A DNA stretch of 64,000 nucleotides, from assembly GCA_026874595.1 (NCBI GenBank), contig CM049320.1, positions 6,823,464-6,887,463 on the forward strand. Direction: 5' to 3'. The translations under genes were made by a program, and so were the position numbers. Below are positions 17,468 to 60,822 of this stretch, one piece after another. The DNA comes from Sipunculus nudus (taxonomy: Eukaryota > Annelida > Sipuncula > Golfingiida > Sipunculidae). The notes beneath the pieces are model-generated. The model ran no database searches. It saw only the letters and a list, made by a program, of their open reading frames with translations, and was not told the origin of the DNA. Each line of letters starts with the position of its first letter. The first letter of the stretch is position 1.

Positions 17468-17564
17468 ATGAAGTGATTTATTAAACGAGTTAATAACTAA
17501 AGGACCTATTTTGTTCCAAAAATATTTATAGAATTCTATAGTTAATCCATCATTTCCTGGAGAC

Positions 17565-18257: not shown

Positions 18258-18272
18258 ATTTACCGATATATC

Positions 18273-30906: not shown

Positions 30907-30908
30907 TT

Positions 30909-31637
30909 AATCCGTACTGAATGAACTCTCGTTAACATGCTAGCCTTGGGCTTTCTCGCCTGGCCGAGGTCACGTGTAGACTCTGGTGTGTAGATTCACA
31001 GCGACGTTTTTTTCTAGATGATTCTTGAACGCGTGTTTACCGTGTATTGTGTTAAGTTCTTCGAATGTTCGAGAAATAGAAGCTTCTCGGCTTGAGGTGA
31101 AAAGTTATATAAGGGGCTGAGTTTTAGAGCCGAGAGAGAGAGCAGCAGAGAAGATTCCAGCGGCCACAGAAGCGTGCGTGGGACCTTATCCGACGAGTTC
31201 GGCAATTTTAGATTTTCTTCAGACATTCTACTGGATTTTGTGACGAGTCTTGTTTGGACTTCTGTTTATTTCGGGATTGTTACAAGAGCTTAACACTGGA
31301 GTGTCATTCTCCGAGAGTATACATTTAAAGAACTTATCGTTGTGACAGTGGTGGTAGCCAGGTACTGTGCACATTGTTTATTTTACTTGGTGATTGTACT
31401 GATATGTTGTTATACCGCTGTTTTACTGTATAATTGTATTGATTTAGTGTATTGTAATGTTAGGGTTGTTTTAAGAATAAATTATAGTTATTTGTTAACA
31501 AAAGACCACTGACTTCTTTGTTCATTCCCCTAGACATTTCACGCTGCCTAGTGATACAGAATATGATTTTTTTATCTCCTTGACAAAAGTTGTGTTCATC
31601 ACGCATACGTGATCTATTGATATTAGGTTCCGTAACA
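30909..31637 (+). repeat. 3' LTR
   Basis: Mate of 27031-27766 with scattered substitutions and indels. TATA box at 31106-31113, AATAAA at 31476-31481, heat-shock-element-like motif at 31063-31075. Confidence 0.9.
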
Positions 31638-38002: not shown

Positions 38003-38008
38003 TTTATT
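38003..38008 (-). terminator. AATAAA polyadenylation signal overlapping the stop codon
   Basis: The stop TAA and AATAAA share two bases (TTTAATAAAG), implying a very short 3' UTR if this signal is used. Another AATAAA lies inside the last coding exon near 38045. Confidence 0.6.
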
Positions 38009-38448
38009 AAACTTCTCGGGCTATGTGTGCTTTACTATTTATGCTTTTATTACAGCACAAATTACAACAAGAAAATAAAATCAAACAGATGGTCAATATA
38101 CTAGGATAACACTGCGTTCCTACAGAGGCCGTTGGTTTAAGATTAACAGTCGTCTGTTCTGGTGTATTAGTAGTTTTTGGGTCTGTGTAGTTCTCAGGAA
38201 GCGCAAAGGCATAGATCATGTCACCTCGCGGGAACAGTGACGTCCAATGCCCGGCCACGTTTAAAATGACGTATTGACGTCCTCCACTCAAGTACGTCAT
38301 GGGGACGGAGGTGGCTTCGTACTTCATCTCGTCAGATCCCCACAGTTCCTCTCCTGTGTCCGCGTCATACGCCCATAAACGTAGGTCCTCACCTCCTGTT
38401 GCGAACACCAGACCGGAAGCTGTCACAATCACTCCGCCAATAACACGC
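38007..38448 (-). CDS. Quinoprotein exon 13 (last blade and membrane anchor)
   Basis: 442 nt reading RVIGGVIVTASGLVFATGGE, LRLWAYDADTGEELW, GGRQYVILNVAGHWTS and GDMIYAFALPE. D584 and H630 match mGDH Asp730 and His775. A Thr-rich stalk and the hydrophobic SILTICLILFSCCNLCC follow, then a 14-residue tail. Stop TAA at 38009-38007. Confidence 0.93.
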
Positions 38449-41400
38449 CTATTGCAAAAATATTCAGTTCATTTAAACTTAGCATAGGAAATGCCGGAAA
38501 TGTTTCATCATTTTCTGTCCAAAAGATATTTTATTACCGTGGCAGTCTACACCCTAATGTAAACATTGATGGATGGATGAATATGTACAAGCAGACGTTA
38601 AACATAATGAGCCATTTTACTGTTCGTTTTAGGTAAAGCATAATTTCAGTTACTGTAACTATTAAATGTCATACTTTGTTTTTCAGTTTTACAATTAACA
38701 GGTTGATTTACCATCGATATCCCCGGTATAGATATATAAACTGTATGTAAAAACCAGAAAGCATTGAGAGTTAACACATCCACTCACTCCAGAGAACACG
38801 CGACGAATGGTATAATTTAATTAATTTTAACCGGTTTTTACTTACTTACACATTGTCATGATTTATGTATGAGCAGACCAAATTAAACGCAAATTCATCT
38901 TAAGGGCATGTTCAACTTGAAAAAATCAATATCAAAGACCGTAAGTCTGCCTTGTAATGGAACATTATTAATATAAATTAAGAGAGTTTATAAGCAAAGA
39001 GGAAAACTAATTTTTAAAAAAGACGACCGGAGGTAACGCGATTGCTGGTAAAACCTGACCAAGATCGGAAGACAGATAACCAGAACATGCCATAAAGAAG
39101 ACAAAGAGGATTGGCAAAAGTTTGTTAAGATTGGGCCAATATTGACAAAGTTTCGATTGAAATAATAATCTGACGTGTTTTTATTACCTTGACCTTAAAC
39201 GTTGGTCTATTTAAAGAAACACAGCTTCTAGAAATCATTCCAATTGACGATAGGTGAAAGCTACAAAGGTATTCCTGGTAAATTGTGGCCTGTAGAATGC
39301 TATATAACAGAGGCAAGAACCAGCAAGAAGGCAACATTGAGGACAACTGACAAACAGACAGACATATTGTCAAAGTGACACTAGACTGAGACAAGTTGAC
39401 TAGACTAAGTTATGCAGAATACAAAGGTGAAACAAATGAGCCAAAGTTTGTGAAGATAGGACTAGAATTTGCAAAATTATTAGGAAGTCCAGGAAAATAA
39501 CACTTTGAAGTGTTTTGAAGTGACAGACATCCCTGCAGGTGACACAAAGCTGAGACCAGATGACTTGACCAAGTTATAAAGAAGACCCAGAGGAAGAAAA
39601 TGAGCTATAGTTTACGTAATTAAAGTTTATAGTTTCAGAGATATTGAACACAAATTATGTGTTTTGGTGTTTCCAGTGCAGCGCCCCCTAACGGCCATAT
39701 CCCGAAATGAAAAATCAGTTTTGAGATATAAGTACAAGTCATAAGATGTATCTGTTTCAAAAGGATTCCTGCAAAACTGTGGCCTGAAGAATGCTACATG
39801 TATGGCAAAATAACCAGAAAGATGGCGAAACTGAGAACAACAGACAGACAAACAGACATACTGACAAAGCGACACAGTCTTGAGACCAGTTGACTTGACC
39901 AAGCTATGGAGAAGACTCAGGGAAAGAAAGTAATAAGCTAAAGTTTATATAATTAAGGTTTATAGTTTCGGAGATATTGCCAAAAATGATATGTTATGGT
40001 GTTTCAAATGCAGCGCCCCCGATGTTTTTTTTCTCGAAAATTAAAAATCACTTTCGAAACATTAGTGCAAGACATACTGACAAAGCGACACAACGTTGAG
40101 ACAAGATTACTAAACCATGCTTTGCAAAGACATAAAGGAAGAAAAAGAACCAAGATTGTGAAGATAGGGCCAACATTGACAAAGTTATGATGAAAATAAA
40201 ATTTCGTCGTTTTTGGATTACTTTGACCTTGACCTTTGACCTATGTTCACCAAAAACAATAGGCTTCCAGGAAATTTGACTTCCAATCAACCATGTAAGT
40301 TTTAGATCGATTGCTCCAAAATTGTGGTGGACGGGAGTACTGACAAACAAATACACACACAAATACACCCACAAACAGACATACGCGACTGACCAACATG
40401 CTTGCCGAAATCGAAGATTTACGGCAAGCAACAAGGTCTAGGAGGACAGATCCTGAGGAAAACATAACTTCCATACATAACATAGGCGGAAGAATACACA
40501 GATGTTTTCGAACTGGCCATACCTTGCACCGTACTCCCTTTTCAAGCCAGCAGGTACTAGTAATGGAGTAGCATAAGGTCGTTCCCACTTTATTTTTCCT
40601 TGGCTTAGGTCAACGGCCACCAGTCTTGCCCAGGGTGGTTTGTAGCAGGGAACGCTGAGATCAGTACGCCCGAAAAATCCTCGACACGAGTGATAGGGAG
40701 AGCCATCTACCGGGCTGGCCCGGCAAAACCCTGAACCGGTCTCGTTGTTTTGAAGTACCTGCCGAACTGAGCACAGGGTGAATAACATCTTCATGATGGC
40801 GTGGTCACAAAGGATAGGGGTGTAATCACCAGTATTTGTCATTAAAAGAATAAAATCACTCAACACTAGCATACACTTGCCAATTAGCTTTTATAATTTA
40901 TCTAAGAATAAATAAAAAACTGCATTTCTAGCATTTTTTTTGTCGAAAGAGAAAATGAAAATATAGGAAATGAATTACTTTAGAAAAGTGTGTTTTCTTG
41001 GAAAACGAAACTGAGATTAAAAGATGTATTCAGGCCCACACACTTCATCTAACGTTCATGGGAAGAGCAAGCTTTCTGTAAATTTAAACGAATCTAGTTA
41101 GTTCTTATCGATTTTTAGGGAGTGAACTTTATTTTTCAGTATCCTATGGAGGTACTCATGACAACATGAAACCTTTGATTCATAAAAAATAAAGAAACAA
41201 TATTTAATTATAGTTTATTATAAAAACAATGATCGTTGAAATGCTTTTGAATGAAAAAGAAAAAAGGATATATAACGCAACATATTTTCTGAAATGACAG
41301 CAGTATGTATCTATTGATTACCTGTAATGAGATGATTGAGAGGAAGATAAGCGATCTGTTTCTCGGGATGTACCGCCAGACTCTGCCAGTTTCCGCCGCC

Positions 41401-44376
41401 CAGTTCTCCCGGTACCTGCAGGACACCCCGGTCTGTCGTAGGGGGCGTAAATAGCTGTAACAAGCAATCGGCGCAGTTTTATAAATATTGTAAATCAATT
41501 GATTCGGAAATAATTTCCAGAGTTCAAACATGAATCGATACCAAATTATATCTTCGACATTGTTTATTGTCTCTGGCTCAAAATTGAAATATTCTTATTT
41601 CGTTAAATAAAAATTTTAGAATATAATGAATTATTACGTGGAAACATGGAATTACATTTTTGATCATGTATTGCTAGTATGAGAAATACGCCATACGGAC
41701 ATTCATGGGAATTTGAAAATGCATATATCATCAGAGAGAACACTTTAACTAGTAAAAATACATTACATGATGGTATATGAATTAAAGCGATTCTTAAATT
41801 GAACTAAGGTACTTTGAAGGATTAAACCATTATGCAAATATATATTAAAATAGAATGAGGATCCGTTATGTTTAAAAAATTATACATCCTTTATAAATTT
41901 GCTATTTGCTTCTAGGTGTTTAACTATGGACTAAATAGGAATAATAAAGATTCCGTAATGTGTGCTCAGCTTAAGGTATATTTTTATTAAATATTTTGTG
42001 TATAAAATGAATCCAAATAACTAAGGAGCCATAATCTGCAGTTCAGACATCGGGGAGGGGGGGGGGGGGGTCGAGTGTCGAATGCCAAAGGGGAGGGTAT
42101 AGTAGGGGACCACCCCTATGGTAAAGACATTTTTTTAAAATTCTAGTCTAAAGGTTTCGGTGCTATTCTCGGCATAAAGCGTGTATTTTTACGTTTCTGT
42201 TTCTAGACTTAAGGGGGGGGGGACCTCACAAAATGCGTCCGGGGTCTCTGTGCTTTAGGTGAGATTTGTGCATTTTGTTTCTTTTGGCGCTACCGTAATC
42301 AATCCAGCTTAATTGTCCGATGCCGTAGGTGGTACACATACCTTTCCTTTGCCGTCAGGTATATTATAATCTTTTGTCAGTATATCTCGACATGCATTGT
42401 AATGTTCGTCATCAAAACGAAACAGATCGTCCATGGAGAAATTCTGTGGAATCAGGTGACCCAAATCACCAACCGGAAACCGCTGTGTTGGCCACGCGTA
42501 GTCATCCGGCATCTGATTGGATTGACATTTTAGATAATTTGCTTATCAAACTCATCCCCCCCCCAAAAAAAAAAATTATTGACACTTTTTAATTTTTTAA
42601 AATGTATGATTTTTAAATACACGCCATATCTTAATCCCTATACCAAATCCCAGTTATAACTAACCTTTCCCAGAAGGGCCACACACACACAAATAATTGT
42701 TCTAAGAACGCTGGAAACAAAACAGGGTGTGAGCGTTGTATTCACTTGTGCAAATAAAAATATATTGAATTTTACCTGCTTGCATAGAAAATTAAATAAT
42801 ATGCTTTAAATCTTGAAATGGTGAATGTCATCAAAATATTTGGCCCCTTTTTCATACCCTGAAAATCACTTCTAAGAAGTTGTACCATTTTACAAATTAG
42901 TAACATTATTGAGGTTCTGGTCTTCATCACAAAAAAAAAACAAGATTTGCCACAAACGTGAGCAGTGAATCCTTAGAACGCAATGTTTTTTTTTTCAAAT
43001 GACCCAACACAATAAATCACGGGTTTGCAAATATTATGAAAATTGAATGCGGATCTTTAATTAAAGGAATAACGAAATTATTATGATTTCAGCCCATTAA
43101 ACTTTATTTTTCATCTATGTAGTTGCCGGTCGTTTTAATATGATTGATGATTAGAGAAATATTGCAGCAGAATAAACAAACAAATGGCAATAGTTATGTG
43201 ATAAATGATATAAAGTGATATGCGATATAAAATGAATGGTATATAACATATGTTATAACAGACCGTGTGTGGTGGGACGGGTCGCTCTTCCACAGGAAAC
43301 AGGGGCTGACCTGTCGCTGCGTCCAGGATGAATAACATACCGGTCTTTGTTAACTAAAATTGAAACGATATGCACATGAATAAGAATATGTCCTCTTATA
43401 TGCATTTCTTACATGACATCAGAATAATATACAAAAACTAAACTCATCATTTCAAGCCCAGACGCACAGGAAAATACATATAACAAGAAGAAAAACTGAA
43501 ATTTGATTGCCTTTTTGAACAAAGAAAGGTTTTACCGCTGCAATATTTTACACCTCACTTGCCCCACCTGCTGGCAATGAAAGAAACTTAGGTTTCGAGT
43601 CCGTTATACTGACAGGTAAGATTACATTTTTTTAACGGCTTCTGTGGCTCAGGTGTAGAGCGCAGGACTAAAAGCCGGGAGATCGTGGGTTTTTCACGGT
43701 CGGCTCTCACCCAGGGTGAGCGCTCTGTAGGCTTAATGGGAAGGCTGTGCCCCATAGCCGTGTATCACCCACATACGAGTGCGTCTTTGGGGGGTTCCTC
43801 GGTTATGACCCAGCAATGGGGATGATTACACATCTAGGACCCGCAGGTGCAGTAGACACCGGGCCTGGGTGACACCAGGATACAAAAATAAAAAATGATA
43901 GAAACGAGTGCTACCGCCCTGTCAAGAAGTCCCAAACCAAATGGAAACTCTGCAGATGTACATACTTAGGTTACGAATTAGATAAGTCAGCATTAAAAAA
44001 TGGAGGCGGTTACCTCCACCAAAAATATAAAAAAAAATAATAAAAAAGATAACAATTTGTTATATTTCAAATTATAAATGCAAGTTTTCTACTCTATTTT
44101 TAAAAGCGGGGTATTTTGACTTGCATTTAATGGTATTTGACAAAACCTTGGAACATTAGTCCATATGACCCGAAGCCATGTAAGCAGACGATCGCAGTGC
44201 GCATGCTCGTGGAGAAGGTCTATGGCAACAAATCAAAGTGATAAAAATGACTATGATGATATGGACGTGAACATGCTTCCACAACTGAAATTCGGGTCAG
44301 TATCAGAATTCTAAATAATTTTTTTTTCATTAAAGAAGTTTTCCATTTTTAAGGACCCGTCCTCAAAAAAATTGTC

Positions 44377-44420
<44 letters not shown>

Positions 44421-44675
44421 GAATGTGTTATTAAAGAAAAATCTTATAAAATAACACCAATAAACGTAAACACTGACAAATAACCCTCCTTGATAACAGT
44501 AAAACATATTACCGTAAGTACAGCTTTCTTACGTGTGCCCTCATGGTCTATGGTGACAACGATTGGCTGACTGCCGAGGTCCTGAAAGATCAAACAGAAT
44601 GTATGAGAGATGTTTATTTGTAGTGCTTTTAGTTGAAGTCACGTCTAACTTAAACGAGTCTACAGTGGATTATTC

Positions 44676-44745
<70 letters not shown>

Positions 44746-47700
44746 CTATATAACATTTTGGGGCCGGTCAAAATAATCTAAACACATTCAACAAGGACAT
44801 CTTGATGCACGTCAGGAAACCAAGTTTTGCACTGGGCGTTTTGCAACTGATGATCTTTCAACTTCGGTACATACGCAAACAAACCCCTTATGTTACAAGG
44901 TTTGCCGTTCGACAACTTTCCTAACAGCTCGTAGAAAAAACTCATCATTCCGTGACAGGGGCGTTATAATAAGAGCTTCCCTGATAAATACATGACCTAT
45001 ATTTCATAACGCAGAGTAAGCCATAAACCAACAACAAGTCTATCGAAAGAGTAGGCCAGTTACTGGCTTTAAAAGTTAGTCACGTGGTTTGTTCAAGTGA
45101 AATATACGTATTTATGATGAATATTCAGCCGATTTGAACATGAAGAAGTTAACGGGAAAACGTTTTATTGGCCTAAGTTTTTTCCTAAATTTTAACGCTT
45201 TGTCAAATATTTTTAGACGTAAATAATAAAGGGACAGAGTTGCCATGTTCAAATTTGATGATCAGGTATGAGGGATAATTAATGCGTATATTGTGATCCT
45301 TATAAAAAAGTTGGCGACCTACACATGTTCTTTCAACATTGAACTTATTCATTATACTAGCTTCAAGCTACTTTTATTAATCATGGGAACTACTCATTTT
45401 ATTCATATTTAGTGACATAATACACAGCTGAGAGGCACAAGTCATGTCATTGTCGCTAAGAAAAATTTGTCGAACAACTCTAATAACAATTATGTATCCA
45501 GTCTTCTTAATTCTTAGTTGTATTATTCACTCATTACTTATCCCATAGTATTATAAATACTTGATCAGTTTATACTGCATAAGTCAAAGTCATTGTGTAA
45601 TTTTTATTTTGATAATCAGCTATATATGTTTTATGTTTGTCATTATATAAGAAATGTAATTTGTAAAGCACGTTTGAATGCGCTTTTGGTGAAAAGAAAA
45701 TAATAATCATCATAAAAATAATAATAATAATTACTCACATAGTTCCATAGGTCATGTTTGATGATTTGGTAGTACCACTTCATGCCGCCAGTCTCCGCGT
45801 CCACCGCCACCACGCTATCCGTGTACTCGTTCTCCCCCTTCCGGTTCCCACCCCAGTGATCATAGCTAGCAGACGATGTCGCCAAATACACCAAACCTAA
45901 GGCGATGTAGTATATATTAACATGAGAAAATAATCTAAATAATGATAAATTACTTCATAACTGGTGAACGGATGTATAAAGGCAATTCCAGCTGATGCCG
46001 TCAGTCAATACGAAGTCATAGGTCTTTAGTCTGGAAAGCCTTCTGTGTTGGGGCGTTTTTGGGGGTTTGCATTAGTAGGTCAAGGGGCGAATACAAATTT
46101 CTAGTTTATCATTGTATCGACCTTAAGTCTTGTATGTAGTGTTAAGTAGTAAACACAACAAAGATACAAATGAAGTAATATCCTTTAGGCAAGAAGTCCT
46201 TTCGCTTGTATTTTGACTGCTGATTTTTTTCATTTAAAATGGTGCTAAATCAGTATCCGCCTTCAAATGAAAACATAATATTCATCGGTGTGAGACTGTA
46301 ATCATATGTAAATTATTTAACAGTATGACGTCATGATTACCTGTTTCATCATCACCGCTGATTGGCGCCCACACGTTGCCACCTCCAACGTCTTTAGTTC
46401 CATTCCACCAAGTGCGGTAGGCGGGGTCAGCCTCGTTCTCGGGTATAACGTGAAATGTCCACTTTTTACGTCCTGTGCGGCAGTGGAATCCCCTAGGTTG
46501 ACCTTTGGCCCCTGCGCTCGTAAGTTCATCGTCTATGTCTGTCAATTTGTACAAATTAACCAGTGGCGGAACCAGAAATTGGAGAAAGGGGGGGGGGGGG
46601 GGGTGAGGCGCTAAACGTGGCTAGGGGGTTTATGAGTATTATGAAAAGTAAAGTTTTAAATTATACATTTAATTTGTTTTGCAGATTTAATTTATAAACA
46701 TGTTTACACATTCAATGTATGTATTCACCAATTGTTTGCAGCATGTTGATGTCAATAAGGAAACGGGTTTCACATATATAAGTTGCAAAATATCATCTTT
46801 CAATAAATCATGCTCGGGGTAAAATAATTCATATTGAAGTCTTTTGTTAAACTTTGCATTTTCCGGTTTCTTTGGTCTAGGCATCGCACAGGACTCGTAC
46901 ACCAGAGCACGTGAGTTCGAGTACCTGTATCAGTACATTTTAAGAGAAAAAGGGTTCTTTTAAGAACCTAAATGGTTTTGGGTAGAAACATAGTTCCTTC
47001 TGGAACTCTATTCTCCGCAAGAGGTTCCATCTGCCACTTGGAGGTTCGTGCCCTGACAATAACTTATAATAAGGTTGTTGCGCATGCACAGTTTATTTGA
47101 ACTAATGATGTCAGCTGTTACCGGTCGGTTGTATTAGTCTGCCAGATATTGGAAGAGGAAATAGTATGAGGCAAGACCTATGTTTATATATATATATTCA
47201 TGTGAAAGAAGTTATCGTTCTAGAGATTAATTATCCAGAGACTTAATATACCCAACTAGTCTCTGCTTGCAAAATATTTTACATTCAATTAATCAAAACG
47301 TTGATAAAGGCCGGTGATAAACATGCTATTACGTGCATAAATTGTTTGGGCCATGTGTAATACAAGTTCATAAATATCTCAGTCATTAGAAACAGTTCCA
47401 GCATTGTAAAAGGAAAATGGGTATCATTTTACAACAGATGCGACAGCAGTATAATAAGATCGAATAGGAACATTTGTCGCCTAAAACTGGTGAATAATAA
47501 TGTTAATAGGTTTTCTTCTATCTTATGTGATACATATATTGCTTGTACTTGCCTAATTTTTCTTTAGTCCCATCAAATGTGCCCTATAAAGACAGTTTAT
47601 TGAACCATAATGTCGCGCCAATTGTAAAATCTCTCCTGGAAAATGAAGGCTTTTAAACAAGGAATTTCGACAGTGAGTTGGCAATACAGTGCTGACTTAC

Positions 47701-50700
47701 CAAATGAAATATTTCGCTGGTCTATATGAAAGAATTACCATTTGGTGTGGATATTCCTTGCATCATCTCACAATACAAGGCTAAACGGCCTTGGAAATGG
47801 TGAAAAGGCACTCACTGTCACCAATGACGACGGTATCGCCGACAATGACTGGTCCTGTTGAGAAACCATACATCTGTGCACGTCGTCCGTCCCGGCGTTC
47901 TATGATGGCACCGGGGACTGTCAGATTCAGCCAACCCTGGTTACAAACGTAAGAAATGTATAAATATAACAACATCTGTTATATATACAGTGAAACCTCT
48001 CCTTGTGGGCACCTCTGTAAAAAGGGCAACACTTATTTACGGCCACTTATGGGTAATCCCTTGAACTAAGTCCCGATATCTATACCTACCTACTAAGGAC
48101 ACCTCTATATTGCGGGCAAAACCTCCGGTCCCGTCAGTGTCCGTTATTCGGAGGTTCTACTGTATTTAAAATGTGTTATGCAGCAATAGTAAATTTGAAT
48201 ACATAATTGCAAATATAACATCATATGTTAATTTTTTAGGATTTTTATGCGGCGATGACAAAGTTGCACATTAAATAGCAATTATTAAATCAGATGTTAA
48301 ATACCTAAGATTTGTTTCTCTGAGGGGCTTTTGTGAATATGAAATCATTGAAAACTCACAATTATTCAGCAATCGGGATTACTTTTCGTTAATATCCTCT
48401 TTCTCAAATATACATGCACGGCGCTTCTTAAAATACTGATGCAATTGTTAACGATGTGTTTTTATTTGTTTATTTTTTTGTTAATAGGTGTGAGCCAATA
48501 CAAACATGTTGGTACTTTCCATGGGGTACGTTATTCTATTAGCATTGTTCAAACAACTCATCCTAAAAGTCATCTTAACCTTTCGAGAGAAAAAAAGTTT
48601 TTCCGTTGTATTGTTTCACCTTTGTATGGACATTTTTTACTAAGGTGTAAACTAATATAAAATATGTAATTCATAAGATAACATAAAGATATTCCTTTTG
48701 CCTACTCTTTGTATATATAAAAAGTGTTGAAATAACCTAAAACCATTCCCGATTCTTTGTTTTTGTTTCGTTTAAGACGTAATTATGTTAATACGATCAA
48801 ATATTCTTTAGTTGTCCGTGGACAAACTTACTCGGTCACCGAATTCCGGACAAAACTGACCAGTGGCTGCATCGACGGCAACCAACATGGCGGCCAGGGT
48901 TCCCATATACACCATCTGCCGACAGAGGGCGCCATCCTTCTTCAATGGATCGAGCCAGGCCGCCACGCCGCGACAAGTCCTGAAAATAGTAATGTAGGAA
49001 TCGGTTGTAAATTCATAATCGATGACTGAAAGATGAAAAATCGGATGATCGATAATTAATCGACCATTTTAGGTACCATCTATATTACCGTGAAATATAC
49101 TGTATAGAATTATTCCTAAGATATTGATCGAGTACATTCAGTCTAGCTTGTACATCTTACTGAAAGGTCAAGGTTATTGACATATCTACCACAGCCCATG
49201 TGCTCTTTAAACCTAATTATTATAATGAATCCCAAAACGCTCGTAAACTGAAGGTCTTCCATGCCCATGGTATTGTTTACAACATAATAATGACGTCACA
49301 AAGGTCGATGACGTAAACATGTCGCATTGACTGACGTTATAAACTGGAATCGCTTCTCTGTTGATGAATATATCATAGTCATTGTGAACCGTCTTGCTAT
49401 ATTTTCGATTATTTGTCTCACTCATAGGAATTACGTGCCAGGTAGGCCATTATTATTCACTTTGTAGTGGGAGGAACAGCTCCTGCAACCTTAGGCTTGG
49501 AACTTTCTCTACTGTATCTTTTGTATAAAAATATCCCGGAAAACATGTCGACATGGGTAGTAGTACAGACTACACGTGTTCTGTTTGGCAGAGCTATGCC
49601 AAATTATGCAAATTTTGTTTAATGTTGGATGATTGACGGTTTACAATGTTTACGGTCACCTGATTGGTTACTCCTTATTCCAATGCTTATGATTATTCAT
49701 TGCATGAATATGCAATTAAGGCCACATAGAGTTCATGGGTAGGTCAATAGCCGTGATGTTGACATTTATTTGTTGCATAATGTTAAAATTTAACGCTCTT
49801 CTCTGTTTTGTATATGTTAAGTCTTCTCATATATCTGAAAGAACAAGAATATTTTCTCGGAATAATATGACATCTTTTGATGTGCAAACATGGTCATTTC
49901 TGATATATTCTACTATGAAAGAAAACGACCAATCATCGATATAATCGATTAATTTGCACCAACTAGTTAAAAGGCAAAGGTGTCCAAGGTGTGCGTCTAA
50001 TACTAAAAGCTAACTGGAAAAAACATTGCTAAGCTGTTTTACAACATTTCGTAGGTACCAAATGTTTCATATAATGTTCAAATTATTTAAATATCTATAG
50101 ATGTATTTACTTTGGTCCTATCGTGTAAAAGTCCGGGTCCTTTATTGTTGCTCCTGTTTGTTTCCAGACTTCGTTACCTGTGGTCGGTTCCAGCGCGATC
50201 AAGTCGTTCCACGGTGTACAGAAAATGAGCAGATCCCGTCCTACAGAACATAATGAAACTAGATATCTATACAATCACCCTTACGCTCGTAGGGGAATTT
50301 TCCCCGCCCCTCCCCTCCTTCCTTTCGACATCCATAATTAACGTTATCATATTTTGATAACGTCATGTTGTAATTTGAAATTTTATCTAGTAAGGTTATC
50401 CTTTAATTTATTCCGATATTTTTCAGTATTTTCTTGAATCCCTTTTTATGAATTGTTTAGAATCAAAACATTATTTACTTTCTGAGGATATCACAGAAAA
50501 AAAGATAAGATTTAAACATAAAAAGATGAATATAAAATATTGTATCTTTATTTAAAGAACAAACTAGTTCAGATCTTAAGAGGCCGTCCCCTAAACATCT
50601 AATCATGTAGAATCTTGTGTAAAATGCCAAACAGATCGGTAGGGTGAGGAAGGACCAAGTTTAAAGAATTTCTTAATAATAATCCATCATCTTATCATTC

Positions 50701-53700
50701 GGTTGTGTTGAATATATTTTGGTCGTCAGTTAAATGGGCAATACAATGCAATACAAAAATACAAAAAAAAAATATTACGAAAGAAGTCTTACCTTGCGTG
50801 CTGCCATCTGTAATCATAATGGGCGTTGCCTCGTGTGCCCATTGGTTATCCCCAGCCCTTCCATAGTGATACGTCCAGGCAACGCGGGTTTGATTGACGT
50901 TGTCACGGTTGATCTGAGTCAGTGGAGAAAACCTCTGTCCTTTTTCGTCTCTTCCATATTGCCTCCAGTAAGCTATAGGAAACACATTAAAGCTGTGTTT
51001 CCATTCATCCGTAAATCTCGTACGTCTCGTACGCAAAAAAATCGGATCCCTCTTTGTAAGATGAACTGTTTCCATATGTACGTTTTAACGTGCTCCGCAT
51101 GCGTATCCGCAAAAACGGACAGCATCGAAACGGATCGGTGAGCGATTCATCCGTTTTGCGGATGGCAAAAATGCCTACATTCCCCAACAGTGCCCCGGCG
51201 CCAGGTGTGATGAGACATATTGGCCTTCTTCCTGCCTGTCGTCCTTGCAGTTTCAAAAGAGGCACGCGAAAGGGCATCCGCAAGAAAAACGTACGTATTT
51301 ATGGAAACAGTTTTTGCAAACAGCGCACTATGGGACGTACGTACGTCTTTTGCGGATACGTTTTTTGCGGATACATGGAAACACAGCTTTATAACAAGAA
51401 CTGCAGTCAGTGGATACATATGTCTCCGCCTGGGTTTTAACTAATGTCATGGCTCACCGGTCAGAGTCTGAAGAAATCCAGCCCCTAATTTCAATGAAAA
51501 CCTCATCATGGAAAACAATTATTTGAATATAAAAAAAGAAATGTATATGATGATGATTCACAATACCTCCGGAATTGAAAGGATTGTTCATTTTAAACTC
51601 TATTTATTTTACATGGACTGTTCAGTTAGGTATAGTAACCAACACAAGGCACTCTCCCTGGCTCGCAGGATGGCGTTAGGTAGTCTGTAGGGATGGAGAA
51701 AACAGGAGAACCCCGAGAAAACCACCGACCTTGGACAGGCCACTATTACTACCCACTTGCATAGCCAAGTCGGAGATCGACTGGTCGCCAGCGTGGAGAG
51801 CTGAACATTTTATCACTCACTGTTCAGGCCCCTTGGATGTTACCCTTATCCTGCGTAAAGTTTCATCAAAATATGTTCGGTCTTCTCTGAAGTAATAAAG
51901 TAACAAATGAAGTAACGTCTCAGGGGGAAAATATGATGCTTTACAACATATATGTTGTATATATGTGTGTGTATGCTTTAGTCAATGTTGCAGTCTGTGT
52001 GTTTTTTAGTCTTATTACGTGATCAGTAATCTTCATAAACAGCCTAGAAAGAAAAGAACAGGCACAAAGTTTACATAAAAGTACCTGGTCACACTAAATG
52101 ACAATGTCTGTTTTACAATAATGAGATATAAGAAACAACAGACGGTTCCATATCGATTCAGTCAATGTGTGAAAAGTGAATATAGCAATTTATAAATTGA
52201 CTGAAAATTTCAGGCAATTTAAAATTGACTGATTTTACACATTGACTGTAACACACACACACAGACACATATAAGAATGAATACAGATGTGAGGATACTA
52301 GTATCAGCAGTATCAGATTACTTCGGAAAAAATAGTTTGGTATCAGATCACTTCGGGAGGATAGTAAGGTATTTGCAGGCGCGGATCCATGGGGGGGGGG
52401 GGGGGGGGGGGGGGGTCCAGGGAGAATTACTCATCGTTCGCTAGCTGGCAGCTAAATATAAACGAACAGAACTCACGTATGAACTAACCAAGCGTTGAAG
52501 TATAAAAAGAAACCAAGCGACACCTGTCGTTTCAGTTAGTAAACACTTTTTAGATCGTAGGGACAAACAGCTGATCGGCCATTACGTCGCCTAGCAACAT
52601 GACCGCAACAAACATATATTCGGTCACTCTCGAAACAATCTGGAAAAAACCTTTCATTTTTTTTGGGCATAATCGAACAAAATAAAATGATAATCTGCAC
52701 ATCAAAGTCGAAAATGACAAAGACACTACACTGTAATATTGATGTCTTGGGGGCTGAAGTTTCAATCGTCATGTCCCACTCGGCGAGAATCCAAACGTCT
52801 TGTTCCAATAAACATCTTGAAGATCGAGTGGTAAGAACATTTAAATACTCAGCCTATCTTAAATTAAAGGAGAAAACATGATTTAGTTAAAAATTAAAGA
52901 GAAAGATGCCTTGAAACCAGAGTCAAAACATAAGAGGTAGTCTACATGTGTAGTGTGAATCAGCCGAAACCAAACAACACTTGAGGTCAAGTCAAGGTCA
53001 AGGCCATCAGCCGAGTAATAAAAAAATAACAAAATAACACAGACACTTGTCAAGAACTGCACTGTTCAGTGCCTTTGCAAAAAATGTCCTGAACCATGAC
53101 TGAGACTTGCGTCCGCCGTCTCATGTTAAATGACTGAAAAGAATTTAAACTCATGACCCCGATAAATCTATTAAATTATAGTATATTGGCAAGTATCAGA
53201 ATTTAAATAGGCCCCGAACAGTCCAGTTCTTGACTACAGTACGCAGACAAAAAGTTTCATTGGTCTCCCAGGGAACGTGTCCATGATCACATCCTTCAGG
53301 TGCGGCCATTTTATGTTTGTGCACGAAGGCTTATTCCTCTTTGTCAGAGTTTTACCAGTTTCAAACAGGCCCCGGCCAAGTTCTGGATTTCAGTACACGA
53401 ACAAATAGAACAGTCATCGGCAATAGTCGTAACTCTGTTAAACGAGAGCTGGCTAAAACTTTTTTGAATCGCGTGAAAGGGGAGCTAAAATCATACAAGT
53501 TAAGCAAGTACAGAATCGTGGACGATGTCTGTAAGTTCACACATTATAAAAGAAAGCTACTCATAGAAAAGAGACAAACTAAGGAGAGGTGGATTCATAG
53601 CGCGGATCTCTTTAACCAGACAAGCGAGCCTCGTATATAAACAGAGAAACACATGGAAGACTATCCTACCTGAAAATATCTCAATAAAAAAAGGAAGTTA

Positions 53701-54868
53701 TCCGGGTTCTGTGGCTCAGGGGTAGAGCGCGGGACTCAAAGCCGTGGGTTCGAATCTCAGCCGAGTTGAGGTTTTTCACGGTCGGCCCCTTCCCAGGCTG
53801 AGCGCTCTGCAGGCTTAATGGGAAGGATGTGCCCCACGGCTGTGTATCACTCACATACGAGTGCGTCTTTTGGGGGTTCCCTGGTGTTATGACCCAGCAA
53901 GTGCGGATAACCTCCTGGATTTTGTGGCAGGTGGCGCCATCTACATACACATTTCGGCTGCAGACATCCATGCTAATATGCAACCCACCTCGCTATATTT
54001 CCCTTTGCCACTCAATCCATGCCTCAGTTCACCCGTCTCACTCTAATTTCGGTGGATACACGGAGTCACTTGTCGACTACCTGTATTCTAGTTTAGTATG
54101 TGCTTGATACGTCACATTTTATCTTGACTCTATGTTGAGGTTGTCTGTTGAACGTCACAGTAGGATTCCTAGACAAAAAGTGAGCCTCGCCGCACGTTGT
54201 GACAGGTCATCCATAGAATACATTTACCAAGGTTACCGAGTTGGCTGGTATTGTCTGTATCTATATTATTACAGGTAAGAATAGTATATATTGTACTGCA
54301 CTGCACAACGCCCACAGAGGGCATCATGGTTATAATATTACTACATATCCAATCCGGATGTAAAATACTGTTTCTGGCACAATGGACTCTATATATTGTC
54401 GTTCAATCATATTTATAGGCTCCTGTGTTAATAAACAAGTTAGTCTTTCTAAATGCGTCACTAATTATCTTTACCTACGCTTTATATATATATAATATAA
54501 ATCAATTACAAAAAAGCACATGTATTACGTCTTTTAAAATGAAGAATAAGGTTTCCGGAAAAGGTAACTTCTAAACCGCGGTTTAGATATATATTTTAGA
54601 GTAAACTTAGAAATGGTACAAAAGCCTCTACTACTAAATATCAATATATATTGTATTTCCTATATAAAAATATAATTCTCTGAATAGCAGGGGGTGACTA
54701 CATTGACTACTCCTCTTGATAAAAAGTGGGAAGAAATATACCCCAATACTAACCATATTGACGCCTCTGGAAAAAAAATTAACAAAAGGTTAAAAGATAC
54801 CATCCTGCTAACCACATATGTTTTAGCGATTTGCTATGCTAGTCAGGGGAAACATACCTGCCAAAAGC

Positions 54869-54909
<41 letters not shown>

Positions 54910-57900
54910 TATATATATATAAATGCATGCTTCAATTGACCTTGGCAAATATGAGGAAGTGGGCATGCGTTGAACTGGCTGGTCATGGAAAGAGTCCAAT
55001 CTGGTTTGTCACTAATTTCATCCTAAATATTTATCAATACTGAGTTTCATCTCCTGTCATTGGTGCCAACCCCTTTTTGGAAATTGTAAATTCTGGTTCA
55101 TTTCGAATGGCCTAAACAATGAAGTTCAGACCCGTCTTACTGAAATATTGGATTCCCCGGGCTTTGATCGGTCTGGCACGAGCAAGGTCAACACGTCACC
55201 AGAGAACACAATGAACCTTAAATATTTTAAACTGAAACTCAAGATGTTGCTTCACTTGAATTGTCAACCAGTGTGTTACTAGACAACATAAATTATTCGA
55301 TTCCCTCAGAATCACCATCGCCTTCACAACTATTCTGTTTGGACACAATGTATCTAGACAACAAAAACCAACAACAATAGGATTAAGACATAGGTCGTGG
55401 AAGGTCGTGCTCAAGCCAGCAGCCGATGCGAAGAAAACGAAACACGGGCAAACGGCAATCAAACAGACACACTAGGATATTGCACTGAACGGAACAATGC
55501 CGCCATGGTAAAGAGTACGCTGACCAACCAATGGATCGATTCTGTATTCGAATTGTCTGGTACCACCCTGTGTGTGTTGGTGAGAGTAAGGCATCACATA
55601 ACTGCATTATGTGCGACGGTATCCAGGACGCTGGATACCGCCGCATAAAAAGCTTCAGAGTAAACTGGCGAACTTCAAACCCTTGTCGGAAAAAAAATCG
55701 TGTAAAATCAAATACATGTAGTACGTTTGTGACAAGTAATCTAAGGGAGATATAGTATTTTATTCGAATGACCAAGAAATTCAGCTAAATATTATGTTTT
55801 GGTATGTAAACAAGACTCACTTTTAAAACTTTGCAACGCTGGCGCTTGAAACTGTCTCAGAATCTGAAACAATGAACTGTATGACCTTTGCTCGCTGAGC
55901 CAACACGGCCCGCTACCACTGGTTACACAGGCGGCTGCCGGCCTGCCGTGGCTGGGGGAAAAACCCAGAGCAGACATCGTTCCCCGTGTATCACCGTTTA
56001 TTAGGATAATACATATTCTTCTAATCAACATTTAAAGTGGACAAACACTGTCTAAGGGATATGTTATATGCGTATTTGATAAGAATATCTTTATTTCTTA
56101 ACGAATACGACATTTTAAGACGAAATATAAGAATTTAATTGTCATGTGGAATGTCTCCAGTTTCCTCAAGTCATCTTCTAGGGCTCTCGCACAGCGTAGC
56201 GTAGTAAGAGAGGACGGGTGCTAGGGCGTAGCGTAGTAAGAAAGGACGGGTGCTAGGGCTAGGCATCACATTGAATATTGACCCGATATGCATGTAGAAA
56301 TATGTGAAATATATGACAGTGTGTTACAGTCTCTGTCTTCTAACGTCGAGGTGCTGTTTAGATTAACCAAAACTGACAACAAAAAATAAACAGGCAGACA
56401 AAAAAAAAACGCGCACTCTTGTCTTCATTGTCTTTGTGAAGCCTCGGTCACAAACCGGTGCGGTCACCGCACACCGAAGAGAACCGTACGGTTTTGGGGA
56501 CCGCAGGAATACCGCAGCATACGAAAAAAACTGCGCTTATTCAGTACATATGATATATCCAAGTCTGCTGATCAAATCCTGCAAAATAAAACCAGTCACA
56601 ATCGTATCCTTCAGTAGACTATACGCTGACTATAATCAAGCCGCCATTCAAATTGAATCGGCTTAGTGGGAAGATGTTACAGACCAACTTTCAAACAACG
56701 ACCCATCTGAAACTCGTGCGGTCTAATCCTCAACTCAAACTACTTACCAGCCTCCTAATGTAACTGTACTTAAGGACTCAATGATAAAAAATATAGACTC
56801 TGTTTCCCCCTTTGTATCAACAAACGCACAGGTAACTGCAGACTCTACTGTCAACACATTTGAGCTGCAGTTGAAAAGTTCAATTTATAAAATCTAAATA
56901 CTTATCATTCTTGTAGGCACCAACCATGTAAGCAATGAAACCACTGATACCACCATCCGCAAATAAAAAAAAATGAAAACAGTTATTCATCGTTACCTAT
57001 TCATGATTATTCAAAGGCCTTCACAAGTTCATTCTAAAAAAAAAAATACAAATAAAAAAATGCTACCCTTGAACATTATGTAAAGAAAAATGGATGGTCA
57101 CTCTTAATAAATGAAAACCTGATCCTTCAATTCTTAAATCTGACCAATGTCATTTGAATAAAAAAAGATTACAAATCATTTAGTTCAAGCATACAGGATA
57201 TAATGTAATGGCAACTTGTCTTTCAACACTTACAGTAGTATCAGATGATTCTGTGTCATGAACTACGCCCACCTCTCCGAGTCCAGATCATCGACTGGTA
57301 GATAGATCCTCATTATCTAAAGCAAACAACGCCCGCGACACGCCCGGCTTAAACAATCTCAAATTCTTACTAAAAGAAGCTTTAAAATAATCGAGGACTT
57401 ATCATCTACTTGAATGTAATGTGTCTGCTACCTAAACTCGAGGTACTAACATGGTTGTTTGGATCTTGTAAGGTACACATAGTTTGCCTTAGTGAAACTT
57501 AGTTTGACTCAACTAATTTGATTTTGATTAGTTTGATTAAGTACTCCAGACTACCATATCTACCGTAAGGACAGAAATAGGCATGGTGGAGGCGTTTCTA
57601 TACATGTTATGGATGATTGATGCTCCCAGTATTGTTCTTAACTGTATGAAAATGACTCCGAATGGGTCTAGGGTAGAAATAATTCTGAACAACATGCATG
57701 TTTTAATAGCGTGTATATATAGACCACTATCTTCTGACCACAATTGCTTATAGAAACTTATGAATAATCGCCATAACATCGCCACATATTAGGGGATTTT
57801 AATATAAAATACTCTGCTCGGGATATATTCTTTAAATCAGAGTTATTAAATAGGGAATCTTCCTTTAATTTTATCAGCTAATCTGCTGTCCTTAATGGAT

Positions 57901-60301
57901 AATTCCTGCATTCTCTACTTTGATCGATCTTACTTTTACTTACCGCCAAACAAAACACTTGATCTCTAAATGACCATCATATAATTTATATACACCTTAT
58001 TTTACCATGTTAAGAATAATGTACATATAGACATATTTGTCACCATCAGATCATATAATACATACGACCCTAGTGCTTTCAGATAAGCCATTGAAGCTTC
58101 CGTAACATTTCGCTGTCTTTGTGATATACACGGTGTGTGCTCAGCCTGGGAACTCTGGCGGGATGAATTCCTAACTATTTGCAACAAGCATGCCCCTTTA
58201 ATGACCTTTCGTGTCAAGTGTGACCGTGAAAATCCATTGATGACACATTCATAATTTATCGTCAGGAAAGAGCTAGAAAATAATTGCCCTGAAAAACGGT
58301 AGTTCTGCCTCATGGAACAATTCTACGCAATCAGGTGACCTGCGTAATAAGAACCATAAAAAGTCAAAGTTTACCATCATAAAATAACCGCATCAATCTT
58401 TTACATACATATGTGGCCAACTCTTAAAAACGTGATTCAACCACAAATAGCTGCAGGCATAACTCAACGAATATTTTACTTTAATCGTAGAGAAATACGA
58501 AATCGAATACGTTTACCCATGAACCACTAAAGCAATGCCATTTCCTTAGTTCCTCTGAATCAACTGATGCGTTTGCACAAATTAATTGCCTTACTGTTCT
58601 TAATCATCAGCGAGAACGGAAACGCAAACCTGGCCTTGACCTTTTAAACTTGTCTGGTGCATGGCTATCTGATGCCGCAGATCTTCTCGCTTCTTCTCTT
58701 ATGCATATTTCAACCTGTCCTTTACTACTGGAGTAGTTCCCCATGAATGGAAATGCGCTGGAGTAGTTCCAATATGTAAAGGTAAAGGTAAATTAAAGGT
58801 AGTAGGTAATTACCCTGCTAGATCTATAACATTGTCAAATTTCTTGAAATGCACGTCAAAATTTCTCTTGTTTATTTGCCTAGTCATGATCTCCTTTCAA
58901 CTGAACCACCTGCTTTCCTGTCAAATAACTCCTGTCAAACTGCACTTGATCATTAGTCGACAACTGTCTCACTGTTGGTGATCAGGGGCGGGTTAATGGC
59001 GCGTTTCTCCCGATGTTAAAGGGACTTTTATTCACTAACACAGTATTTTTTAACAAATTATAACAATATGGAGTTCATGGGACTACTCTACAGTGGTTTC
59101 ATTCATATTTAAATGTTTGCAAACAATTTGTTACCTTCGCTAACAGTTTTTCGTAGGGAAAAAATATGATAACGGGTGTGCCTCAGACACAGTCCTTGGG
59201 GCGTTACGGTTTTTAACCTATCTGAACGACATAAATAATATAACCCTCGAGCAAAATGCTCTATTAATGCCGATGACGTCATGATATATATAAACGGCCC
59301 TGACGTCATTACTGCACAAAAGAAGCTTCAGACTGGCTTATTCCAAGGAGTAAATTGATTGCGTAAAAATAAGTTCTCAATTATTGATGTAAATTCAGCT
59401 TTCACGTGAATACGCTCCAAAGAACGTAGGTCGAATGATAAACCATCAATAAGTATAGGTGATTGTACTGTTTTGAGTGTTGAAGCTGTTCGACATTTGG
59501 GCATTGCAATTGATTCCCATCTATCATGGACGAATAAGACAAAAGTTAACAAGAAATTATGCTCAAAGATAGGATAAATACAACGAATTTGTAAATTTTT
59601 CCCTAAAAATACTTGAATGTCTTTTTTTCCTTGCCTTCATTCAGCCAAATATTGACTATGGCCTTACTGTTTGAGGAAAGTGTGGGCGTACATTTCATTT
59701 TCGCATTCAGCAGCTTTAAGAACGAGCAGCAAGAAAAATTTCGGACATTTATGATCAATCGTATAGCAGCTTGACAATCAAACATGACAATATATGGATG
59801 GACATAGAGCAAAGATATATACAACTTTTATCGATATTGACATATAAATGTTTCAATGGACTCGCCCCTTCTATTCTTACAAAGAATTTTCCTTTTACCA
59901 GTGATGTTCATCAGCATAACACTTGTTCATCAGTTAACTCCTACGTTAATATTCCGAAACCGCACAAAAAAAACCCTCATTCTTTAATGCAGGTAGTATT
60001 ATGGAATAGCCCTTCGATAAAAATGCTAAAAAAATGCTAACAATCTAAAGGGCTTTAAAAGGCTATCTAAAACCAAAGTGAATCAATTTCCTTTTACTTT
60101 CTACTTGTGTTGCTTAATGATACTATTTAGTTTGAGGGTCATCTAATTTTTTACATAAAAGTTCTAATGTACATTTTATCTAGACTTTTATTTACACGTT
60201 TTATTTCAGTTGAACACTATGGTGCTTTCTTTGTGTTTTAAGCCAAGCCGCGTTTAATGTATTTATTAACTCTGTAGAATAATTTTCCCAACGTTTCTCT
60301 A

Positions 60302-60363
<62 letters not shown>

Positions 60364-60822
60364 CACATTCAGCTGTGCCTACGGCGTGTTCTTTGCTTAA
60401 TATTTTTTGATTGCGTGATGCCTTTTAAGTTTAATGGACAAACCGAAAATTGCATTTTATTGTGATTTCACCTATATTTTAAAAGGCCTTTCTGTTAACA
60501 GATTTTTATTCTGAAAAAGCTTCCCTGGAAGATAAATCATGTAATAAATAAATAAATATTTCGGCCACCTCCCCTCCCTCAATCCTGGCTTTGCCTCTGA
60601 CCTTCCATCCGCTACACCGTAAAACGGCCGCGGCCCACAGATGTGCACTGTGATCACGCAGCATCTGTTCTATAACTAACACAATTTTACGTGTAATAAC
60701 AAGTAAGTATTAATCACTGAACGCCTGAGGTAAGGTTAAAAACTCCTACCTTTGCCTTCAGGAGCGGCTGTTGTCAGACAACACAGTGCTGCGAACATAA
60801 AGAAAATCAACGAGAAAGCCAT
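38007..60822 (-). CDS. Animal-encoded quinoprotein (PQQ) dehydrogenase of the membrane glucose dehydrogenase type, 13 exons
   Basis: Thirteen exons (60822-60750, 50972-50793, 50240-50111, 48979-48832, 47936-47816, 46511-46341, 45896-45739, 44581-44513, 43353-43264, 42512-42342, 41454-41322, 40766-40523, 38448-38007) join in phase to 2130 nt, 709 codons plus TAA. Residues 1-20 form a signal peptide. About 25-650 form the eight-bladed quinoprotein propeller shared by bacterial Gcd/mGDH, with CRGVAAW, CPEFGD, RGFHCRTG, GNVWAPIS, YDHWGGNR, KHDLWNYD, LTKTGMLF and GGRQYV. About 679-695 is a hydrophobic anchor, then a short polar tail. Bacterial enzymes oxidise sugars or alcohols with PQQ and pass electrons to a quinone. 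Counterparts of mGDH Trp404 (W265), Lys493 (K353), Asp730 (D584) and His775 (H630) are kept, but Asp466 reads Asn326. It is probably secretory-pathway or cell-surface. Activity and substrate are unknown. Confidence 0.93.
39040..40420. repeat. Diverged tandem repeats of about 330 bp in the last intron
   Basis: Recurring phrases in order: AGATAGGGCCAA-type and GACAAAG near 39130, 39455 and 40160; GACTTGACCAAG near 39560 and 39891; GTTTATAGTTTC(A/G)GAGATATTG at 39625 and 39958. Unit boundaries are irregular. Confidence 0.65.
40523..40766 (-). CDS. Quinoprotein exon 12
   Basis: 244 nt. The acceptor CTGTGCTCAG, not the later GGCAG, is required for frame. It reads VRQVLQNNETGSGFCRASPV and PCYKPPWARLVAVDLSQGKI. 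The Cys-rich insert before PPW resembles that of mGDH. Donor GTATGG, phase 2. Confidence 0.9.
41322..41454 (-). CDS. Quinoprotein exon 11
   Basis: 133 nt reading LFTPPTTDRGVLQVPGELGG, then GNWQSLAVHPEKQIAYLPLN. The TPP and GG-NW elements are family hallmarks. Acceptor GTTACAG, donor GTAATC, phase 1. Confidence 0.92.
42342..42512 (-). CDS. Quinoprotein exon 10
   Basis: 171 nt, 57 codons, reading MPDDYAWPTQRFPVGDLGHL, then FSMDDLFRFDDEHYNACRDI. It matches the PTQPFP linker and the following helical segment of the family. Donor GTATGT, phase 0. Confidence 0.92.
43264..43353 (-). CDS. Quinoprotein exon 9
   Basis: 90 nt reading LTKTGMLFILDAATGQPLFP, then VEERPVPPHT. K353 corresponds to PQQ-contacting Lys493 and is 27 residues from Asn326, the same spacing as Asp466-Lys493. 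Acceptor TTTTAG; the donor GTCTGT is weak but keeps the phase. Confidence 0.85.
43637..43880 (+). mobile_element. tRNA-derived SINE lacking its B box
   Basis: Begins GCTTCTGTGGCTCAGGTGTA (A box), then jumps from GATCGTGGG to TTTTTCACGGTCGG where the copy at 53702 has TTCGAATCTCAGCCGAG. The downstream body (GGCTTAATGGGAAGG, CACATACGAGTGCGTCTTT) matches that copy. It lies in intron 8 of the quinoprotein gene. Confidence 0.8.
44380..44418. repeat. (AG)n microsatellite
   Basis: Pure AG run, about 100 bp beyond the donor of quinoprotein exon 8. Confidence 0.9.
44513..44581 (-). CDS. Quinoprotein exon 8
   Basis: 69 nt: DLGSQPIVVTIDHEGTRKKA then VLT. Matches the DLPAQP region of mGDH. Acceptor TTTCAG, donor GTAATA, phase 0. 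Confidence 0.88.
44678..44741. repeat. (AT)n microsatellite
   Basis: Pure AT run in intron 7 of the quinoprotein gene. Confidence 0.9.
45739..45896 (-). CDS. Quinoprotein exon 7
   Basis: 158 nt reading LVYLATSSASYDHWGGNR, YTDSVVAVDAETG, and ending KHDLWNY. Asn326 occupies the place of the catalytic Asp in the bacterial HDLWD motif. Donor GTGAGT, phase 0. Confidence 0.93.
46341..46511 (-). CDS. Quinoprotein exon 6
   Basis: 171 nt reading RGFHCRTGRKKWTFH and, near the end, GGGNVWAPISGDDETG. W265 matches the Trp floor of the PQQ pocket in mGDH. Donor GTAATC, phase 1. Confidence 0.93.
46561..46603. repeat. Motif CAGTGGCGGAACCAGAAATT followed by G16
   Basis: The same arrangement, a CAGGGGCGNATC-like motif leading into a long G run, recurs at 52377-52415 and 61193-61242. 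Confidence 0.7.
47816..47936 (-). CDS. Quinoprotein exon 5
   Basis: 121 nt reading GWLNLTVPGAI, then FSTGPVIVGDTVVIGD. Acceptor AACCAG, donor GTGAGT, ends in phase 1. A TA-flanked MITE lies about 50 bp upstream of the acceptor. Confidence 0.92.
47988..48162. mobile_element. TA-flanked MITE, 175 bp
   Basis: Termini CAGTGAAACCTCTCC and, inverted, CAGTAGAACCTCCGA, each with TA outside. Related copies lie at 11998-12130 and, more distantly, 10508-10683. It lies in intron 4 of the quinoprotein gene. Confidence 0.7.
48832..48979 (-). CDS. Quinoprotein exon 4
   Basis: 148 nt reading TCRGVAAWLDPLKKDGALCR, then a strand MVYMGTLAAMLVAVDAATG and CPEFGDR. The CRGV motif and the second Cys match the bacterial pattern. 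Donor GTAAGT, phase 0. Confidence 0.93.
50111..50240 (-). CDS. Quinoprotein exon 3
   Basis: 130 nt reading RDLLIFCTPWNDLIALEPTT. The His found in the bacterial T-x-H segment here (the substrate-site His262 of E. coli mGDH) is Trp. Ends in phase 2 at GPK, donor GTAAAT. A decayed duplicate lies at 32731-32840. Confidence 0.92.
50793..50972 (-). CDS. Quinoprotein exon 2 (first propeller blade)
   Basis: 180 nt after a 9.8-kb intron. YWRQYGRDEKGQRFSPLTQI and then NRDNVNQTRVAWTYHYG are the family's N-terminal signature; HEATPIMITDG follows. Acceptor CCTATAG lies only 17 bp from a MITE. Donor GTAAGA. Confidence 0.92.
50990..51389. mobile_element. TA-flanked MITE, 400 bp, next to a splice acceptor
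   Basis: Perfect terminal inverted repeat AAGCTGTGTTTCCAT with TA on both sides (50988-50989, 51390-51391). Inner inverted GCGGAT and ACGTACG motifs recur. It occupies the end of intron 1 of the quinoprotein gene, so overlapping short frames there are not genes. Confidence 0.85.
52160..52245. repeat. Imperfect palindrome, about 85 bp
   Basis: AGTCAATGTGTGAAAA at one end pairs with TTTTACACATTGACT at the other. The interior repeats CAATTTA(T)AAATTGACTG. Confidence 0.7.
52391..52415. repeat. G25 homopolymer
   Basis: Uninterrupted run of 25 G after AGGCGCGGATCCAT. The true length is likely uncertain in any assembly. Confidence 0.9.
53702..53900 (+). mobile_element. tRNA-derived SINE (best-preserved copy)
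   Basis: A tRNA-like head has A box TGGCTCAGGGGTAGAGCG and B box GGGTTCGAATC at normal spacing, followed by a body shared with 43637-43880. The head is part of a longer repeated unit, so it is a SINE rather than a tRNA gene. Confidence 0.85.
54870..54920. repeat. (AT)n microsatellite
   Basis: AT run with one AAAT interruption. Confidence 0.9.
56194..56266. repeat. Short tandem duplication, about 37 bp twice
   Basis: GCGTAGCGTAGTAAGAGAGG then ACGGGTGCTAGG occurs twice in a row with one mismatch. Confidence 0.8.
57230..60060 (+). mobile_element. Decayed CR1/Jockey-like LINE
   Basis: Endonuclease traces: CLSET-FDSTNL near 57490, YRKDRNRHGGGVSIHV near 57560-57605, LGDFN near 57786. RT traces: VVPICKGKGK and NYPARSITLSNFLK near 58770-58850, GVP-Q--LG near 59175, LNDINN, NADDVM near 59265 (ADD core), LGIAIDSHLSWTNKT near 59500. 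Frameshifts and stops are frequent, so it is an old copy. It lies in intron 1 of the quinoprotein gene, on the opposite strand. Confidence 0.8.
60303..60360. repeat. (AT)n microsatellite
   Basis: Pure AT run downstream of the decayed LINE. Confidence 0.9.
60750..60822 (-). CDS. Quinoprotein exon 1 (signal peptide)
   Basis: 73 nt: MAFSLIFFMFAALCCLTTAA then PEGK plus one base. Donor GTAGGAGT. Phase 1 fits exon 2. The hydrophobic core and small residues before PEGK suggest cleavage near residue 20. Confidence 0.85.

Follow-up and report, generated by a model that had tools for sequence, protein, structure and literature searches.

Why does a worm carry a gene of the bacterial pyrroloquinoline quinone (PQQ) dehydrogenase type, and does its product still work as a dehydrogenase? 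The gene lies in a stretch of 64,000 nucleotides (the window) on chromosome 15 of Sipunculus nudus, on the minus strand from 60822 to 38007, and a sequence-only reading had described it as a spliced animal gene for a quinoprotein dehydrogenase acquired from bacteria. We found that its chief oddity is less the presence of this family in an animal than the loss of the catalytic aspartate throughout the animal clade, under purifying selection. The gene has 13 exons, its 12 introns all have GT-AG borders, and the joined exons run in phase for 2157 nucleotides (718 codons and a TAA) without an internal stop or frame break. This confirms the exon number, borders, phase, and exact start and end coordinates of the sequence-only reading, which had counted nine codons too few (709). 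The donor of exon 9 is non-consensus, and the identical six letters are found in one of the paralogues described below (C12a).

We performed a splicing-blind six-frame search of the genome with the propeller profile PF01011, and 8 of the 13 exons exceeded the cut-off singly; in exon 11, the matching stretch overran the exon border through one TAG. Against the joined protein, the same profile scored 579.7 bits (E = 1e-173, curated cut-off 26.7) over profile positions 1-595 of 595, a full-length match to this family and to the quinoprotein dehydrogenase propeller fold. Across the assembly (1.43 Gb, 153 contigs), the search gave at least 48 matches, with 46 in six loci spread over four chromosome-sized contigs, one in a broken copy, and one on contig C128 that belongs to a bacterial BamB-like lipoprotein. 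The six loci are one each on C14 and C6, three on C12 (C12a, C12b, and C12c, near 19.34-19.39 Mb), and the window gene on C15. Exon borders of C12a agree with those of the window gene at all 12 introns, those of C14, C12b, and C12c at the 11 introns that separate exons 2 to 13 from one another (in C12c, exon 2 has three extra bases), and those of C6 in all exons except 1 and 12; exon 1 was credibly found only in the window gene and C12a. Splice phases of the paralogues were taken from the window gene, so phase agreement is partly built in, while the tblastn ends are independent of it. Because eight exons match singly, the joined protein spans PF01011, and five paralogous loci have the same exon pattern, the window gene is, judged from its sequence, a real spliced animal gene and not a product of chance. 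As separate observations on the copies, exon 5 of C12b is tandemly duplicated with an identical translation (L019:2496-2651 and 2879-3034), and only the 3' part of exon 12 was found in the C6 copy (L012 near 5128), which may be decaying or differently spliced.

The window gene aligns with C12a through the introns, in segments of 70-88% identity that include the exons. A decayed copy immediately to the right of the window, on C15 (L024 5300-7852), with exons 10-12 and in-frame stops, is most like C12c and aligns with it; a piece of the C12 cluster was therefore apparently copied to C15. Bacterial contamination or an assembly artefact could be suspected from the bacterial genes present on other contigs of this assembly, but the twelve introns, the six loci on chromosome-sized contigs, the introns alignable between copies, and the anchoring of the chromosomes by Hi-C by the authors of the assembly (PMC10212961) led us to reject this explanation as extremely improbable. 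The sequence-only reading had likewise excluded contamination, and the introns, a signal-peptide-like start, and the Hi-C-anchored setting bear it out: the window gene is the worm's own. In the text of the assembly paper, the words "dehydrogenase," "horizontal," and "quinone" are absent (PMC10212961). The ratio of nonsynonymous to synonymous substitution rates (dN/dS) was 0.26, 0.20, and 0.19 in the 3 of 10 paralogue pairs with unsaturated synonymous sites (exon 1 excluded); the protein is therefore under purifying selection.

The best NCBIfam model was that of the membrane-bound glucose/quinate/shikimate family, TIGR03074, which scored 433.9 bits (cut-off 832.65) with a match starting at profile position 154. 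As the sequence-only reading had stated, the worm protein has the motif order of E. coli Gcd (membrane-bound glucose dehydrogenase, mGDH, TIGR03074), to which it is 31% identical; unlike Gcd, it has neither the N-terminal membrane region nor Asp466. With the score under the cut-off and that region absent, we rejected membership in the membrane Gcd family. A Pfam scan (E 0.001) gave PF01011 and PF13360 only and thus no heme domain; because this domain and the Gcd membrane region are both absent, no electron route is evident. The same scan places the protein outside the fungal AA12 family of PQQ dehydrogenases, which is eukaryotic and PQQ-type, as the worm protein would be, but resembles the soluble glucose dehydrogenase (GDH) in structure and has a histidine as its presumed base (PMC6881810). 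In centipedes, GDH genes reported as bacterial transfers of PQQ-type glucose dehydrogenases are PQQ-sugar dehydrogenase-like (PMC9151784), a resemblance that probably denotes the six-bladed soluble type. The worm protein is close to bacterial glucose/quinate-family PQQ dehydrogenases without the Gcd N-terminal membrane region (36-41% identity over 86-93% of its length), whose named organisms belong to Gemmatimonadota, Acidobacteriota, Pseudomonadota, Bacteroidota, and others. These relatives share its domain and the counterparts of Gcd Lys493 and Trp404, but they are encoded in uninterrupted single frames and nearly always have the catalytic Asp, whereas the worm has introns and Asn.

We verified the Gcd numbering on the E. 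coli sequence for Asp466, Lys493, Asp354, Asn355, Trp404, Thr424, and Arg266, which we take to be residues of the PQQ site, and found the worm counterparts, in the same order, to be Asn335, Lys362, Asp221, Glu222, Trp274, Ser294, and Arg131. The place of Asp466 is occupied by Asn in all seven animal genes examined, that is, the six loci of Sipunculus nudus and DgyrCDS13300 of Dimorphilus gyrociliatus (six aligned genes plus C6, which stands outside the alignments, the 5' part of its exon 12 not having been found). Among 277 other rows (61 of 80 bacterial loci, 215 database proteins taken as bacterial, few of them with an organism name, and E. coli Gcd), this place is Asp in 275, Gly in one (P0030), and Asn in one (P0140). 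In four printed alignments, worm Asn335 faces the Asp of solved alcohol dehydrogenases. Gcd Asp466 and methanol dehydrogenase Asp303 are presumably the catalytic bases of their enzymes and counterparts of each other, and the spacing to Lys493 and Arg331 agrees with this correspondence. A model of the methanol dehydrogenase metal site included Glu177, Asn261, and Asp303 and placed Arg331 in the second shell (PMC8028316), and in a PQQ alcohol dehydrogenase the catalytic aspartate contacts the substrate hydroxyl (PMC10975547). Further columns in which at least 85% of the other rows agree are changed in all six aligned animal genes, among them His461 to Lys/Arg, Arg298 to a hydrophobic residue, Arg502 to Ala, and Arg734 to Trp. 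Because the catalytic Asp of an ordinary PQQ dehydrogenase is Asn in all seven animal genes examined, the label "dehydrogenase" given by the sequence-only reading was not supported and appears doubtful for the worm protein.

The main rival to a loss of ordinary catalysis is an active animal enzyme that runs on dietary or microbial PQQ and uses another residue as its base, for example a His at the Thr424 place. We consider this rather unlikely, though several observations speak for it: the cofactor-pocket counterparts of Lys493, Arg266, Asp354, and Trp404 are conserved in the animal genes, the family is under purifying selection, His occupies the Thr424 place in five of the six aligned animal genes and in C6 (0 of the 277 other rows), and His144 is the presumed base of soluble GDH (PMC6881810). 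Conversely, the window copy itself carries Ser at this place, none of the six aligned animal genes retains the counterpart of Asn355, and no PqqE was found above the cut-off anywhere in the assembly, bacterial contigs included, a weak result given that 14 control genomes likewise yielded 0. On this weak ground, food or other microbes would have to supply the PQQ. Searches for PqqC and for the annelid blood-pigment linker were also empty, and no control matched in either case.

We next consider where the gene came from. Of 8000 candidates scored in a search of 5.8 billion proteins, 4844 were matches, and 120 of these were listed. The best among the matches listed was DgyrCDS13300 (638 bits, 43% identity over 92%; runner-up 454 bits). 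Only 4 of the 120 listed rows carry an organism name, Dimorphilus and three bacteria, and a search with an animal profile named 12 of 120, Dimorphilus and eleven bacteria, leaving Dimorphilus gyrociliatus as the sole animal among the named rows of listed matches. The control, noggin of the same worm, had 67 matches in this database; ten of them name animal species, with Capitella, Potamilus, Gigantopelta, and Elysia among these. The distribution of the gene in animals looks patchy, with most entries nameless and spliced genes often unpredicted, so that absence is weak evidence. Both Sipunculus nudus and Dimorphilus belong to Annelida in the NCBI taxonomy. Judging by titles and the openings of abstracts, we found no account of a Gcd-type gene in annelids in the open-licence literature; the Dimorphilus record already held a member of the family, without published comment that we could find there. 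A genome scan gave at least 595 stretches; we confirmed 588 of them and retained the best 80. No bacterial donor was found among these best 80 of at least 588 confirmed stretches, which come from many phyla and reach at most 38% identity in the best segment. P0140, the one non-animal row with Asn, is not an evident donor, as its Pseudomonadota group stands apart from the animals.

We built two trees. The first, rooted on Gcd, combined 6 animal genes and Gcd with 83 of 179 less similar rows, 90 rows in all; the animals formed one clade (Shimodaira-Hasegawa-like approximate likelihood ratio test, SH-aLRT, 100) with a stem of 1.81. The second had 50 hand-picked rows and was rooted on two alcohol dehydrogenases; the animals again formed one clade (100/100, stem 1.38) inside the glucose/quinate family (100/99). 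Their branch is an early one: only a small Emticicia-Acidobacteriota group splits off before it (82/16, weak), and the other 40 rows, including mGDH, exclude it (97/92). When the bacteria were held together without the animals, approximately unbiased (AU) tests gave no rejection in either set (90 rows: held tree 22.5 log units better, p = 0.829; 50 rows: held tree 1.7 log units worse, p = 0.434). The sequence-only reading had predicted that the animal clade would nest among bacterial Gcd-like proteins, and this was not obtained at the present sampling. An ancient eukaryotic gene that descended vertically and was lost almost everywhere, with no transfer into annelids, would agree with the placement outside all sampled bacterial members that these tests allow, with the long stem, and with the many introns common to the copies. 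We nevertheless regard vertical descent as quite unlikely, since Dimorphilus is the only animal named where noggin names ten species, itself a weak argument. Two separate transfers, into Sipuncula and Dinophilidae, are in our view very unlikely: DgyrCDS13300 is distant from the worm genes and, unlike them, has a long end branch (1.41-1.71), but all the animal genes form one fully supported clade and share the change from Asp to Asn. A transfer from bacteria to an early annelid is likely as the simplest reading of the distribution; it is the distribution, rather than the tree, that makes it the likeliest, and the transfer proposed by the sequence-only reading holds to that extent, without the nesting.

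The ends of the protein bear on its place in the cell. Both are hydrophobic by hydropathy, the N-terminus being signal-peptide-like and the C-terminus following a Thr-rich linker, which suggests a putative surface anchor. DgyrCDS13300 likewise has a hydrophobic N-terminus, a Ser/Thr-rich hydrophobic C-terminus, and Asn for the catalytic Asp, and its structure model shows a helix at each end and a linker of low confidence. Such a tail is not exclusive to animals, as the best-scoring bacterial proteins P0002 and P0003, and also P0114, have hydrophobic C-terminal extensions of their own. The window copy is 18 residues longer than C12a (window:38007-38100), and the C12a DNA encodes a similar tail in another frame; one of the two copies has therefore undergone a frame change near the C-terminus.

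Taking these results together, we think it probable that the window gene encodes a repurposed annelid surface quinoprotein of ultimately bacterial type, which would bind an o-quinone or sugar without ordinary dehydrogenation. Under this reading, a bacterial-type PQQ dehydrogenase gene would have entered the worm lineage, acquired introns and a signal peptide, and multiplied to six loci in Sipunculus nudus. The protein would be secreted and probably anchored at the surface through its hydrophobic C-terminus. Its cofactor cavity would be largely kept, with the catalytic Asp turned to Asn and further near-invariant residues altered, and at the cell surface it may bind an o-quinone (PQQ, for example), a sugar, or a polyol, with no ordinary hydride transfer. 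Several points weigh against this: Asn may still allow slow or altered chemistry; Asp is also replaced in P0140 and P0030; the presumed base His of AA12 is not conserved in more than 25% of sequences (PMC6881810); and, for the transfer, the trees do not nest the animals within the sampled bacteria, the AU tests failing to separate a nested position from one outside all of them.

A bolder version, which we hold to be unlikely, is that early annelids captured a bacterial PQQ dehydrogenase, rebuilt its active site (Asp to Asn, and a new His), and moved the protein to the cell surface, where it would be a true PQQ user with new chemistry or a PQQ sensor. If so, it would be either the first animal protein of its class truly using PQQ or a sensor of it; it has long been asked whether animals have any protein that uses PQQ. 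In 2019, fungal AA12 was described as the first and only known eukaryotic PQQ-using family (PMC6881810). The worm genes offer a testable animal family, with the cofactor pocket largely kept and the catalytic residue changed in a defined way throughout the clade, and a clear case of a bacterial-type enzyme gene that is intron-rich and multiplied in an animal.

Table 1. Features of the window gene, with window coordinates, strand, and remarks
Exon 1	60750..60822	-	ATG at 60822; signal-peptide-like start; homologous exon in C12a
Exon 2	50793..50972	-	
Exon 3	50111..50240	-	
Exon 4	48832..48979	-	Carries Arg131 (Gcd Arg266)
Exon 5	47816..47936	-	
Exon 6	46341..46538	-	Carries Asp221 (Gcd Asp354), Asn272, Trp274 (Gcd Trp404)
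Exon 7	45739..45896	-	
Codon AAC (Asn335), at the catalytic Asp466 place of E. coli Gcd	45742..45744	-	Within exon 7
Exon 8	44513..44581	-	
Exon 9	43264..43353	-	Carries Lys362 (Gcd Lys493) at 43345-43347; donor GTCTGT
Exon 10	42342..42512	-	
Exon 11	41322..41454	-	
Exon 12	40523..40766	-	
Exon 13, stop codon included	38007..38448	-	
Hydrophobic C-terminal stretch, residues ~681-704, after Thr-rich linker; putative membrane or glycosylphosphatidylinositol (GPI) anchor	38052..38123	-	From hydropathy; anchor type inferred

Elsewhere in the assembly, bacterial genes occur on contigs C60, C61, C62, C66, C72, C74, C75, C89, C123, and C128 (L027-L036). Eight of these contigs have long COX1-type frames (one of them read), with 37-38% GC in the two stretches measured; C123 has a cbb3-like oxidase frame and C128 the BamB-like frame. 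The unplaced contigs of the worm assembly thus seem to hold bacterial cobionts. Within the window, Rfam gave 0 matches at the gathering score. In a strongly G-skewed stretch, at 4329-6382, an 85-base unit occurs in 24 tandem copies with 92% matches, and a non-LTR (long terminal repeat) type retroelement occupies 15401-18377 on the minus strand, with a 724-residue frame (reverse transcriptase, zf-RVT) and an adjoining 270-residue frame. Possible remains of an LTR-type element were found on the plus strand at 28162-30910, with an integrase core at 30473-30907.

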